A stretch of DNA of 64,000 bases from positions 872,530-936,529 of the forward strand of contig NZ_OX424407.1 of the NCBI RefSeq assembly GCF_949152215.1, given 5' to 3'. Source of the stretch: Lancefieldella sp. Marseille-Q7238. GTDB lineage: Bacteria > Actinomycetota > Coriobacteriia > Coriobacteriales > Atopobiaceae. Of this stretch, positions 16,671-58,327 are shown in pieces. How positions within the stretch are numbered: position 1 is the stretch's first letter; every line of letters begins with the position of its first letter. The translations under genes were made by a program, and so were the position numbers. The notes beneath the pieces were generated by a model. That model was not told the DNA's origin. It saw only the letters and a program-made list of their open reading frames with translations, and searched no databases.

Positions 16671-18014
16671 TTACGCCGTCAACTTGAAGGGTGCAAGCGC
16701 CTTCAAAACAATTTCATTGGCTTCCTGGCAAAGCTTTTCGGAGGAAGCCTCCGCAAGTACGCGCACCAGAGGCTCGGTGCCCGATGCCCGCACCAGAACA
16801 CGACCATCGCCCTCGAGGTACTTCTCGGCAGCTTCAACTGCCTTCTTTACGTCGGCGGACTCCATGGCGGCGTTCTTGTCGGTGACCTGGACATTGAGCA
16901 ACTGCTGCGGGTACAGGCGGACGGGACGCGCCAGCTCCGAGAGTTTCTCGCGCTCGGCACGAAGAACTTCCATGATGCGAAGGCTGGTCATGATACCGTC
17001 GCCGGTCTTTTCCAAATCGCCAAAGATGATATGGCCGGACTGCTCGCCGCCCAGGCTGTACTCGTGCTCATTCATGCAGGCGTAGACGTTCTTATCGCCC
17101 ACATCGGTCTTGGCGTAGGAAAGACCCGCGTCCTCGAAGGCCTTGAACAGCCCGAAGTTGCTCATAACCGTGGTGACAACCGTCTGCTTTGCCAGACGTC
17201 CGTACTTATTGAGATAGCAGCCACACACATACAAGATAAGGTCGCCGTCGACCACGTGGCCGCGTTCATCAACGGCCAGACAGCGGTCGGCGTCGCCATC
17301 GTAGGCAAAACCGACATCAAGGCCGTTTTGCACCACAAAGCGCTGCAGCTGGTCAATATGGGTGGAACCAGAGTCCACGTTGATGTTAAGGCCGTTTGGA
17401 GCGTTGTTGATAACGTGCGTCTCCGCGCCGAGCGCGTCAAAAACAGGACGAGCAACGCTTGAAGCCGCGCCGTTAGCGCAGTCAAGACCGATTTTCATGC
17501 CCTGAAGGCTGAAGCCGCACGAGGCAATAAGACTGGAGATATAGCGATTGCGTCCCTGCATATAGTCGATGGTGCAGCCGATCTGTTCGCCTGTGGCGAG
17601 AGGGACCTCAAAGGCGCCGTCGATGTAATCCTCAACTTGCTGGAGTATATCCTCCTCCATTTTATAGCCGTCTTTATTCACAAGCTTAATGCCGTTGTCC
17701 GTGAAGGGATTGTGAGAAGCGGTAATCATGATGCCGCAGTCAAAGGCGCCGTCGACCACCTCATAACTTACTCCGGGCGTCGGAATAACATGAAGGATAT
17801 ACGCGTCAGCGCCCGAAGCCACAAGACCAGAGACGAGTGCCGACTCAAACATATAGCTGGAACGGCGAGTGTCTTTTCCCAAAATCACGCGGGCGCGATG
17901 ACCCTGACGAAGCCCGTAGTACCACCCGATGAAGCGGCCAATCTTGTACGCGTGGTCAACGTTGAGGCCTTCGTTCGCACGGCCTCGAAATCCATCAGTG
18001 CCAAAGTACTTCAT
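16671..18014 (-). CDS. glmM: Phosphoglucosamine mutase
   Basis: GlmM converts glucosamine-6-phosphate to glucosamine-1-phosphate for UDP-GlcNAc and cell-wall synthesis. All phosphohexomutase motifs are canonical: KYFGTDGFRG at the N terminus, the phosphoserine loop ITASHNPF, metal site DGDADRC, sugar loop GGEQSGH and phosphate loop RASGTEPLVRV. The start is ATG 18014, preceded by AAGGAG at ideal spacing, giving 447 aa; the frame remains open upstream but without support. It is the first gene of the glmM-acpS-nnr-alr run. It contrasts with the divergent homologue at 55.3 kb. Confidence 0.97.
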   Translation of the reverse strand: MKYFGTDGFRGRANEGLNVDHAYKIGRFIGWYYGLRQGHRARVILGKDTRRSSYMFESALVSGLVASGADAYILHVIPTPGVSYEVVDGAFDCGIMITASHNPFTDNGIKLVNKDGYKMEEDILQQVEDYIDGAFEVPLATGEQIGCTIDYMQGRNRYISSLIASCGFSLQGMKIGLDCANGAASSVARPVFDALGAETHVINNAPNGLNINVDSGSTHIDQLQRFVVQNGLDVGFAYDGDADRCLAVDERGHVVDGDLILYVCGCYLNKYGRLAKQTVVTTVMSNFGLFKAFEDAGLSYAKTDVGDKNVYACMNEHEYSLGGEQSGHIIFGDLEKTGDGIMTSLRIMEVLRAEREKLSELARPVRLYPQQLLNVQVTDKNAAMESADVKKAVEAAEKYLEGDGRVLVRASGTEPLVRVLAEASSEKLCQEANEIVLKALAPFKLTA

Positions 18015-18150
18015 AGCAGCTCCTTGCATATGTCGTATATCGTATGTCATAGGTCCGCGCGATGCGGACGATTGGATGTTCTTCTCGCCTCGCACGCCTA
18101 CACATGCGCGGCAATACTAATATTTTAGGTGAAATCAAAGTGCAGCCAAC

Positions 18151-50291: not shown

Positions 50292-54971
<4,680 letters not shown>

Positions 54972-55299
54972 CTGATACAGACACATGTGCCTGTAGAGGT
55001 TAAAAGAGGTGAGTATAAATCCTCGCTTAGATCACGCTGATCTCGGATTCGCTGAAATATATAAGAATTGGCGTGAATTTGCATTCACATTCGATTATTT
55101 CGCTAGTCTGTCTTTGTCGATCTTTTACGATCTCAGTATCCGGTTTTCAAGGTTCGCTGCGCTGCGCTTTTAGTAGGTCTGTCAGCGTCGCGCGGGGAAT
55201 AACTATAGTCTCTACCCACCTTCGAAAGACCCGAAAAGATCGTCTTCACAAATCCTCCACAATTCGGGAACGAGAGGGTAGGTGGAAGGGAGGAAACAT
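54972..55299 (-). promoter_or_regulatory. rRNA operon promoter and leader region
   Basis: This 328-base gap between the phosphohexomutase-like gene and 16S must hold the rRNA promoter and leader. A TATAGT followed by a GC-rich stretch (TATAGTTATTCCCCGCGCG on the minus strand, about 55190-55208) could be a -10 with discriminator, but no good -35 was seen. The 12-base element at 55133-55144 pairs with the spacer after 16S. Confidence 0.45.
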
Positions 55300-56724
55300 C
55301 TACGCCTCTCTGCGCACAATCTCGCAGGCGGCGTCTAAAAGCTTGTCGCGCTGCGCCTCGGTCGACGCCTCAGCATAGACGCGTACCAGCGCGTCCATGC
55401 GAGACGGACGAATCAACACCCATGAATTATCGGCAAATTGCAGGCGCAGGCCATCGGCGTGGCTTACGGATACAGGTTCATACCCTGCAACATCAGCGGG
55501 ATTCAATCCGGGAAGGATATTGCGGAACGCCTGTGTAGCCGCCGCGTCAAGACGTACGCCGCGGCGCATATAGCGCATGCGTCCAAGCTCCAGCGTATCC
55601 TCAGCAATAAGCTCTGCAATGCTTTTCTCGCTTTTTGCGACCATCTCGACTATATAGAGAGCCGCAAGCAGTCCATCTCTTTCGTGGAGGTGATGCGGAA
55701 AACACATGCCACCATACTCTTCGGCAGCAAGCAACACATCTCCCGCCTCAATTTCGTTGTAGATGCGCGCGAAACCCACGGGCACCGACACAGATTCCAA
55801 ACCCAGACGCTCAGCCTGGCGAGAAATGCGTGCGGAACAGGTAATCGTAGAAATCACGCGCCCCTTCTCGCCACGAAACGCAGCGAGGTGCTTAATAACC
55901 AAAGGAACAAACTCGTGCGGCGTCAGAAGGTGCCCCGACCCGTCGACTATAGCGGCCCGGTCTCCGTCGCCATCGAACAAAACGCCTAAGTCAGCCCCTG
56001 TTTCCTGCACAACACTGGAACACTCATCAGCCCATGGATCCGCAGGCTGCGGATGGATACCGCCGAAATCATCCTGAGGTCCCGCATGGATTTCCTGCAC
56101 GCTGCAGCCCGCGGCGCGGAGCAGCTCGGCAACGTATCCGGAAGCGGCGCCGTACATAGGATCCACAACAACACGCAGGCGAGAAGAAGTGATCGTCTCA
56201 ACGTCCACCTCTGAGAGAAGCGTTTCAAGGTAGGGAGTCATAAGGTTGATTGTCTGATAGTTGCCGCGCGCTTCGGTGGGCTTCAGCGGGATCTGATGCT
56301 CAACCACATCCAAAAAACCGCGAGATACCGGACCCCCGTTGTAATCGCGCACGACGATGCCATTGTATTCACAGGAAAGCTCGGTCGCCGTAATAATGAT
56401 GCCGCCAACAGCATCGTCCGACGTCGCACAGGCGAACCCGACTGCCGGCGTGGGGCAAAAACGATCAGAAACCCGTACCTCTAATCCGTGTGCAGCAATG
56501 ACCTGAGCGACAAGCCGCGCATATTCGGAAGACTGCGCTCGCGTATCAAAACCCACGATAACTGTGGCGCCAGGCTGCTCATCAGACCAGACGTGACCGA
56601 GGGCGTCCGCAAGGCGGACGATGTTTTCTTTGGTGAAGCTTTTATCATAGCGGGCTTGCCAGCCATCGCTGGAAAACCGCAGTATATCAGCTGACTTATC
56701 CAAGGTTCTCAGCCGCTTGGCCAA
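55300..56724 (-). CDS. Phosphohexomutase homologue with altered active site
   Basis: The fold is that of phosphoglucomutase/phosphomannomutase (474 aa): metal loop FDGDGDRAAIV (251-255) and GGIHPQPADP are intact. Three key loops differ. The phosphoserine loop TASHNPxxYNG reads TATELSCEYNG (112-122), replacing the catalytic Ser with Thr and losing HNP. The sugar loop EESGG reads EEYGG (335-339). The phosphate loop RPSGTEP reads RPSRMDA (439-445). The gene overlaps galU by 29 bases, so a role with UDP-glucose synthesis is likely, but normal mutase catalysis is doubtful. A TTG start at 56724 is assumed, with AAGGAGG close upstream; a TTG at 56703 is possible. Confidence 0.85.
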   Translation of the reverse strand: MAKRLRTLDKSADILRFSSDGWQARYDKSFTKENIVRLADALGHVWSDEQPGATVIVGFDTRAQSSEYARLVAQVIAAHGLEVRVSDRFCPTPAVGFACATSDDAVGGIIITATELSCEYNGIVVRDYNGGPVSRGFLDVVEHQIPLKPTEARGNYQTINLMTPYLETLLSEVDVETITSSRLRVVVDPMYGAASGYVAELLRAAGCSVQEIHAGPQDDFGGIHPQPADPWADECSSVVQETGADLGVLFDGDGDRAAIVDGSGHLLTPHEFVPLVIKHLAAFRGEKGRVISTITCSARISRQAERLGLESVSVPVGFARIYNEIEAGDVLLAAEEYGGMCFPHHLHERDGLLAALYIVEMVAKSEKSIAELIAEDTLELGRMRYMRRGVRLDAAATQAFRNILPGLNPADVAGYEPVSVSHADGLRLQFADNSWVLIRPSRMDALVRVYAEASTEAQRDKLLDAACEIVRREA

Positions 56725-57592
56725 GCGCCTCCTTAAATGCGTCTATTTGATTGGGATCCGACAGTGCCATACGGGCATTGGTAGCCGCCCATGCAGCAGG
56801 CGTCCCCGTGTCGCAGCCTTCGGCAGGGTCTACCACCAGCGCGTACATCTCTTCTTCAGCAAGCAGGCGCTCCATCGCGTCAGTAAGCTGTATCTCATTT
56901 CCGGCGCCGGGACCTTGCGTGGCGAGAAGTTCCATGATTCTGGAAGACAAAAGATATCTGCCGACGATAAAGAGGTGCGATGGCGCGTCTTTAGGCTCGG
57001 GCTTCTCCACAAGTCCTGAAACTTTCCAAACGGCACCTTCGCTTTCAGTGTCCGCTGTCTCAGACCTGTTGATGCACTCCCCTGCAATGATTCCATAGCG
57101 ATTTGTCTGATCTTCAGGGACGGGCGCAACGGCGATAACGGAAGCGCCGCCATGCTCCTTGGAAACCTCCGTCATACGAAGGCACATCTGGCGGTCCGGA
57201 ACAAAGTAATCGCCCAGCAGTACAAAAAACGGCTCAGCGCCCACAGCCTCCGCAGCGCACAGTACCGCATGACCAAGACCGCGGGGGTTGTCTTGATAGA
57301 CAAAAGAGACCGGAAGTGTTGAAGCCTCATGAACTCTTTGGGCAAACTCGTCTTTTCCCCGTGAGCTCAACATATCTTCAAGTTTTTCATCAATGGAGAA
57401 ATAGTCCTCTATCTGTGGTTTTTCTCGCGAATTGACAATGATGACGCCATCGACGCCTTCAGGCTCCAGAGCCTCTTCGACAACATACTGGATGACGGGC
57501 TTATCGAGAACAGGAAGCAGTTCCTTGGGCATTGACTTGGTTGCAGGTAGGAATCGAGTACCGAGTCCTGCTGCCGGAATAATAGCCTTCAT
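56696..57592 (-). CDS. galU: UTP-glucose-1-phosphate uridylyltransferase
   Basis: GalU makes UDP-glucose from UTP and glucose-1-phosphate. The 298-aa protein starts MKAIIPAAGLGTRFLPATKS, with the nucleotide-binding loop, KPVIQYVVEEA, and LGDYFVPDRQM. It ends with PAEGCDTGTPAAWAATNARM. The ATG at 57592 has GGAAGGA upstream; the frame open to 57637 is not needed. It precedes and overlaps the divergent phosphohexomutase gene, the expected partner step (glucose-6-phosphate to glucose-1-phosphate). Confidence 0.96.
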   Translation of the reverse strand: MKAIIPAAGLGTRFLPATKSMPKELLPVLDKPVIQYVVEEALEPEGVDGVIIVNSREKPQIEDYFSIDEKLEDMLSSRGKDEFAQRVHEASTLPVSFVYQDNPRGLGHAVLCAAEAVGAEPFFVLLGDYFVPDRQMCLRMTEVSKEHGGASVIAVAPVPEDQTNRYGIIAGECINRSETADTESEGAVWKVSGLVEKPEPKDAPSHLFIVGRYLLSSRIMELLATQGPGAGNEIQLTDAMERLLAEEEMYALVVDPAEGCDTGTPAAWAATNARMALSDPNQIDAFKEALGQAAENLG

Positions 57593-57784
57593 CACATTCC
57601 TTCCGCATGACGCATTACGCTCATCACAATACCCCAAACCGCTCGGTTTAACCGCATTGCGCTATGCCTATGCCGTAAACGGGCGGATTCGGCCGCCCTG
57701 CGCATGAGCGCCGCACAACAACGTGTCCTCTATATATCCTCTGCGCGAGTACACTATACGAGAAATTCTCTGGAATTCGAGAGA

Positions 57785-58213
57785 TTACCTCTCATCGATA
57801 GTAATTCCTCGACTCTCAAGGAATTGCACCAGTTTGGACATGGTGCTGTGCGAAAGCGAATGCTCCATCAGGCACGCCTCCGCGTCCGCGGTGTCCTCGT
57901 CCACATGCAGGTCATGCTCGAGAAACGTTCTGAGCGCACGGTGGGCGCGCCATACCTGTCGCGCGTTTTTCTCGCCTTCCTCTGTCAGTGTCACACGGCC
58001 ATAGCGGCTCTGCTCAACCATGCCCTGCTCTTTAAGGAGGGAAAGCGCCTTGTTTACGCTTGCTTTGGAGACCTTGAGCGCCTCGGCAACATCGACCGAA
58101 CGAACGCCTCTGTCGTCTTCAGGCTGGTCCAAAGCAATCCGATAAATCGCTTCCAGATAATCTTCCCCTGCCTTGCTTAGGGTATGGTCAGGGAGTATTG
58201 CGTCATTAGCCAT
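57785..58213 (-). CDS. DtxR/MntR-family metal-dependent repressor
   Basis: The 142-aa protein has an N-terminal winged helix (LSKAGEDYLEAIYRIAL, RSVDVAEALKVSKASVNKAL, GMVEQSRYGRVTLTEEG) and the metal-binding dimerisation domain (HRALRTFLEHDLHVDEDTAD, EACLMEHSLSHSTMSKLVQF) of the DtxR family. It lacks the third SH3-like domain, as in MntR or short IdeR-like forms. Start ATG 58213 has GGAGGG upstream. It stands alone between galU and the LCP gene. Whether it senses iron or manganese cannot be decided from sequence. Confidence 0.93.
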   Translation of the reverse strand: MANDAILPDHTLSKAGEDYLEAIYRIALDQPEDDRGVRSVDVAEALKVSKASVNKALSLLKEQGMVEQSRYGRVTLTEEGEKNARQVWRAHRALRTFLEHDLHVDEDTADAEACLMEHSLSHSTMSKLVQFLESRGITIDER

Positions 58214-58327
58214 GCGACCCTCCAACAATGTAGCAGCCGTGTTTTTTGATTAAGAGGAACTTTTACTCACTATGAATAATGATACCCCTATTACTTAAAA
58301 CGTTACTTGAGTCGGCGGCGCACAGCA

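Follow-up and report, generated by a model that had tools for sequence, protein, structure and literature searches.

A phosphohexomutase-fold protein encoded beside galU in Atopobiaceae, with altered catalytic loops and a probable non-mutase role

In a 64,000-nucleotide stretch of the genome of Lancefieldella sp. Marseille-Q7238 (the window), galU overlaps a gene whose product has the fold of a phosphoglucomutase/phosphomannomutase (PGM/PMM), with catalytic loops that depart from the canonical sequences. Is this protein still a mutase, an enzyme with another reaction, a protein with a non-catalytic role, or the product of a gene in slow decay? A first-pass annotation had suggested a mutase using phosphothreonine, a regulatory pseudoenzyme, or an enzyme with a new reaction; comparison with orthologues argues against the first of these, and a regulatory or otherwise non-mutase role remains the best reading.

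The gene, its fold, and its junction with galU

The ORF, its coordinates, and the four loop motifs first quoted for it were confirmed from the sequence (Table 1). Read from TTG 56724 on the minus strand, it encodes a full-length member of the alpha-D-phosphohexomutase superfamily, with the four-domain arrangement PGM_PMM I–IV: Pfam domains I, II, and III score strongly, above cut-off, and domain IV marginally (19.6 vs. 23.1 bits). The predicted fold is intact. An AlphaFold2 model (pLDDT 88.4, pTM 0.88, from a thin 16-row alignment) superposes along its full length on archaeal and Thermus PGM/PMM structures (Foldseek E 7e-42; VIA Z 47.7), including Thermus thermophilus PMM (PDB 1TUO), which has the same domain order and fold at 30–31% identity (VIA Z 46.8 over 429 residues). 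The protein is under the cut-off of all seven NCBIfam mutase equivalog models (for GlmM, 143 vs. 447.55 bits), but these scores are uninformative on activity, because canonical orthologues likewise fall below. The normal GlmM expected near 16.7 kb is at 16671–18095 and exceeds the TIGR01455 cut-off.

Table 1. Features of the mutase-like gene and its neighbors (window coordinates; residue numbers from TTG 56724).
Feature	Coordinates	Strand	Remarks
Altered phosphohexomutase-fold protein, ORF as listed	55300..56724	-	474 aa, stop codon included in coordinates; ORF, domains, model
Probable true coding region	55300..56703	-	Conserved TTG; 8-nt overlap with galU stop (TTGGATAA); 467 aa
Loop 0, GWQARYD, residues 21–27	56644..56664	-	Canonical GWRA; Arg to Gln23
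Loop 1, TATELSCEYNG, residues 112–122	56359..56391	-	Canonical TASHNPxxYLG; Ser to T114, His to E115, following Lys to V124
Loop 2, metal loop DGDGDRA, residues 251–257	55954..55974	-	Retained in window protein
Domain III loop VPVGFARIY, residues 314–322	55759..55785	-	Canonical TPVGFKWIY; Lys to A319, Trp to R320
Loop 3, EEYGG, residues 335–339	55708..55722	-	Canonical EESGG; Ser to Y337, fixed in core Atopobiaceae
Loop 4, RPSRMDALVRV, residues 439–449	55378..55410	-	Canonical RPSGTEPLVRV; Gly to R442 fixed; R439/S441/R448 kept
galU (UTP-glucose-1-phosphate uridylyltransferase)	56696..57637	-	Upstream of mutase-like gene and overlapping it
DtxR/MntR-type regulator	57785..58228	-	Conserved upstream neighbor of galU

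As had been noted, the gene sits with galU, overlapping its stop codon. The sequence TTGGATA(A/G) lies across this stop in 9/9 core Atopobiaceae sequences compared, window included, and provides a TTG start that overlaps galU by 8 nt. Because this TTG is conserved in the core relatives inspected, 56703 is taken as the probable start, seven codons inside the listed ORF, rather than TTG 56724; the latter may be the start instead, given the AAGGAGG just upstream of it. Whichever TTG is used, translation is probably coupled to that of galU, and the stretch 56696–56724, conserved in all core Atopobiaceae compared, has the look of a translational-coupling junction. More distant members of the family start the gene 5–15 nt past galU. 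Long open frames at some loci hinted at a GalU-mutase fusion, which was rejected: the compared loci have a galU stop at or near the junction, and the frames of the two genes are mostly different.

Two observations concern the neighbors. The window GalU scores 269.7 bits against TIGR01099 (cut-off 326.8), GalU of this lineage being somewhat divergent. Directly downstream of the mutase-like gene is a minus-strand 16S rRNA gene (about 53500–54975); since many draft contigs end at the rRNA operon, gene absence in draft genomes was treated with caution.

Catalytic positions in the window protein and across the Coriobacteriia

Residue roles were mapped to window columns by alignment through canonical orthologues and 1TUO, with loops and phosphate contacts as defined in Xanthomonas PGM (PMC6443537) and the roles of the acid Arg, base Lys, and alternative acid His from PMC7761743. 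Relative to canonical orthologues and 1TUO, the window protein replaces TASHNP, GFK, EESGG, and RPSGTEP, and the seven catalytic positions scored (acid Arg, Ser, His, three Asp, base Lys) are reduced to three. The phosphoserine loop (TATELS for TxSHNP) has neither Ser nor His; Q23 and A319 stand in for the acid Arg and base Lys, and there is no Lys anywhere in VGFARIYNEIEAGD. The sugar loop has EEY for EES, and the phosphate loop, canonically R-S-G/N-T...R, has also changed Thr to Met443 beside R442; its kept R439, S441, and R448, together with the sugar loop, correspond by alignment to parts that have loop-iii and loop-iv roles in Xanthomonas PGM (PMC6443537). The three motifs originally reported missing are indeed altered, but the loss is wider, extending to the domain-I Arg, loop-1 Lys, and domain-III Lys. 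The metal loop (DGDxDR) was reported as retained, which holds for the window protein but not for the family: several Atopobiaceae lineages have lost Asp residues of the triad.

Orthologues were sought in 296 genomes of the class, most of which gave a good match. The window's family, f1 (Atopobiaceae), includes Lancefieldella, Olsenella, and Tractidigestivibacter by contig identities; two others, f2 and f3, we take to be Eggerthellaceae and Coriobacteriaceae. The window genome closely resembles that of Atopobium sp. oral taxon 199, in the lineage of L. rimae and T. scatoligenes. A conspecific contig (NZ_KE150486.1, 99.8% identical) has identical loops; the L. rimae orthologue (82%) has a single loop difference, RPSRT for RPSRM; and about 70 Atopobiaceae genomes have altered loops, mostly at the locus MurA-LytR-MntR-galU-gene-16S. 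Sequencing or assembly error is excluded by the conspecific genome and this family-wide distribution. Canonical motifs in homologues had been proposed as a sign of local error; they are found outside the Atopobiaceae, but within it the altered loops are general.

The nearest kin of the window protein are its Coriobacteriia orthologues. Gene order around it has changed little across f1; f3 still has the gene between MntR and 16S, sharing the rRNA-adjacent position, with galU absent from that place. In a tree built without the loop columns, f1, f3, and f2 each fall on one side of a branch, several long branches being unsure. Judged by position and tree, this is one vertically inherited Coriobacteriia gene, with the canonical orthologues and the window gene in a single orthologous lineage. 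Outside f1 and f3 the loops are near-invariant: GWRA, T(A/S)SHNP..YLGxK, DGDADR, GFKW, EESGG, and RPSGTEP. Those of f3 are partly changed (TGSHHP, EEAGG or EETGG, mostly RPSGTEP), and those typical of f1 are TASERSCEYGG, GFxRIY, EEYGG, and RPSRTxxVVRV, with more change in some genera. All seven catalytic positions are present in 21/22 non-redundant canonical sequences, 14/27 from f3, and 0/51 from f1, in which no sequence exceeds five. Divergence by itself cannot account for this, since within-group identities are comparable (mean pairwise 0.58 for the canonical group vs. 0.53 for core f1).

Within the Atopobiaceae, the Ser, His, and metal Asps have been lost repeatedly. Thr at position 114 occurs in the window's genus alone, its relatives having Ser, Gly, Asp, Cys, or Ala. 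Among 36 core sequences each triad Asp is nonetheless intact in at least 30, and Ser in 29, whereas the domain-I Arg, loop-1 Lys, and domain-III Lys positions vary freely, with no one fixed substitute.

Some matches were irregular. In five genomes, some of f2/f6 (L155-L159; G282, G274, G288, G179, G256), the first search matched the C-terminal two thirds only; the loop-1 motif is present in a longer frame, with possible insertions in domain I. Three others (L030, L124, L125; G183, G245, G287) have one in-frame stop codon reported inside the match range.

Selection, retention, and a second phosphoglucomutase

The first-pass annotation considered the gene intact and under selection, and dN/dS values agree in indicating purifying selection. 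Close core pairs give 0.025–0.2, near or moderately above the adjacent galU, dS being saturated for the most divergent pairs; in the window's and neighboring genera values go down to 0.025–0.1, also for pairs whose dS exceeds 1. Where the Asp triad is incomplete, some close pairs still give 0.04–0.09 (L135/L138, L146/L150, L061/L128). A few pairs are faster, at 0.3–0.4 (L147/L143, L143/L140, L128/L129).

Residues conserved in the core include, on the ligand side, the phosphate contacts R439, S441, and R448, the sugar-side H345, and E336 and G338, plus R256, and several new residues are fixed there (L121G, W320R, S337Y, G442R). Seven sites have exchanged one fixed residue for another, six of them in active-site loops (L121G, T314V, W320R, S337Y, V346L, G442R), an enrichment with a Fisher p of 0.009, ignoring relatedness. 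As read from these alignments, the cleft is remodeled, not eroded alone.

The gene is present in 72/79 Atopobiaceae genomes. All seven without a match keep GalU; in one (G202), where the full gene is missing, galU is immediately followed by a remnant of about 67 residues (L212 4806-5006). Two further f1 genomes (L050, L052) have galU elsewhere, away from the mutase-like gene. These cases and the f3 arrangement do not support strict dependence on GalU. Since some lineages evolve fast or drop the gene while keeping GalU, the function is dispensable and the GalU link weak.

A search for another canonical pgm, as the annotation had recommended, found one in the window genome, of PgcA type (C1:1499213-1500931 / L002:877-2598; 573 aa, TASHNPAVYNG and RPSGTEP). 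It belongs to the same superfamily as the mutase-like protein but to a separate lineage with canonical motifs. In B. subtilis, PgcA provides glucose-1-phosphate for UDP-glucose (PMC6797236). PgcA-type canonical PGMs were found in 79/79 Atopobiaceae genomes. In f2, 35 genomes have only the short canonical gene, 40 only the PgcA type, one neither, and none both (mutual exclusion p = 7e-21, ignoring shared ancestry). Both genes occur in 34 f3 genomes, and a near-canonical short gene alone in 13 close relatives. The f2 exclusion and the presence of a PgcA-type PGM in all f1 suggest that the ancestral PGM probably became redundant and was then repurposed. Some f3 genomes (L163-L189; G098, G104, G106, G140, and relatives) have two GlmM-sized phosphohexomutases of about 445–450 aa and no PgcA-type PGM; there the near-canonical short gene may be the sole PGM.

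Possible functions

If the Atopobiaceae gene has a function, this could be ligand binding, regulation, or a different chemistry. We favor, with moderate confidence, a non-mutase pseudoenzyme, most likely one whose domains III and IV hold an anionic sugar ligand between them. From the missing residues we infer that mutase activity is absent, while domains III and IV probably still bind a phosphosugar or sugar nucleotide. Translational coupling to galU is the sole hint of a partner, and suggests that the protein might regulate UDP-glucose supply or serve there as a scaffold. A more specific version, in which the rebuilt protein is a sugar-phosphate or nucleotide-sugar sensor controlling GalU or another envelope enzyme by contact, its stoichiometry set by translational coupling, we regard as quite unlikely.

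A PGM/PMM that still works, if sloppily, through phosphothreonine (in the window's genus) or alternative residues is very unlikely. Pseudomonas aeruginosa variants S108A/C/D have solved structures, one with bisphosphate bound, and loss of the Ser might by itself be tolerated; but in the window protein five positions have gone together (acid Arg, Ser, His, and the Lys residues of loop 1 and domain III), Thr is limited to the window's genus, with Gly, Asp, Cys, or Ala taking its place elsewhere, all these genomes have a canonical PGM, and TASH, SASH, and TPSH are the commonest loop-1 motifs in a survey of 20,000 similar sequences (PMC7761743). At the other extreme, slow decay after redundancy, leaving no function, might account for the absences, the G202 remnant, and the raised dN/dS of a few lineages. 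It is nevertheless highly improbable: the gene is kept across the family, new residues have become fixed, constraint is strong in the window's and neighboring genera, and dN/dS near 1 is not seen across the core.

An altered enzyme would be harder to separate from a binding protein. Here the rebuilt cleft (Y337, R442, R320, G121) and retained metal loop would serve a different reaction, such as a phosphatase, bisphosphate-dependent phosphotransfer, or a mutase for an unusual sugar. The coordinated, fixed replacements clustered in active-site loops, the Ser and Asp triad intact in most core sequences, and strong constraint in the core genera are in its favor, and the fixed new residues fit a new reaction as well as ligand binding; Olsenella-type core relatives, with Ser and Asp triad kept, may undergo phosphorylation or carry out some phosphotransfer. 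However, the three positions that activate phosphoryl transfer (domain-I Arg, loop-1 Lys, domain-III Lys) vary freely with no single new residue instead, and several lineages drop metal Asps with the gene still under selection, and on balance we think this reading unlikely.

The favored pseudoenzyme would have some precedent. Vertebrate PGM5 (aciculin) is a phosphohexomutase that lacks activity yet can bind substrate (PMC7761743); as presumed for the window protein, it keeps the fold without PGM activity beside an active paralogue, and the changes in both include the phosphate loop. Of the catalytic Ser, metal site, acid Arg, and base Lys, all present in herring PGM5, the window protein has only the metal site; because PGM5 keeps most of its catalytic residues, the catalytic loss here is, residue for residue, the more extreme. 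The two are of independent origin (about 23% identity), the window protein being bacterial, encoded beside galU, and not an orthologue of PGM5. That a protein of this fold can regulate another enzyme by contact is known from GlmM, which binds and inhibits the c-di-AMP cyclase CdaA (PMC8573169), but GlmM is an active mutase, and the window protein fails the GlmM model cut-off. The window genome also encodes a diadenylate cyclase; a CdaA-type partner is possible, and nothing ties this cyclase to the mutase-like gene. No report of a bacterial phosphohexomutase pseudoenzyme was found in the open-access literature searched.

In the simplest history, whose order of events we infer, a vertically inherited Coriobacteriia PGM/PMM would have become redundant in the presence of a second, PgcA-type PGM. 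f2 lineages would have retained one or the other; f1 would have held on to the old gene after its mutase chemistry went, with loss of the phosphoserine, the following His, the acid Arg, and the base Lys, and in several lineages of metal Asps too. The retained protein would bind a sugar ligand without interconverting sugar phosphates.

Both the fold and its presumed fate, that of a pseudoenzyme, are known; what is new is the lineage, together with a loss of the catalytic set that is unusually complete. Extant proteins form a natural series, from active-looking (class-wide) through half-altered (f3) to dismantled but selected (Atopobiaceae), and the likely cause, a second PGM belonging to a different superfamily lineage, is visible in the genomes; the origin of a pseudoenzyme would thus be directly testable with extant proteins. 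The annotation of these genes as phosphoglucomutase/phosphomannomutase in Atopobiaceae of the mouth and gut is probably wrong, which affects metabolic models.
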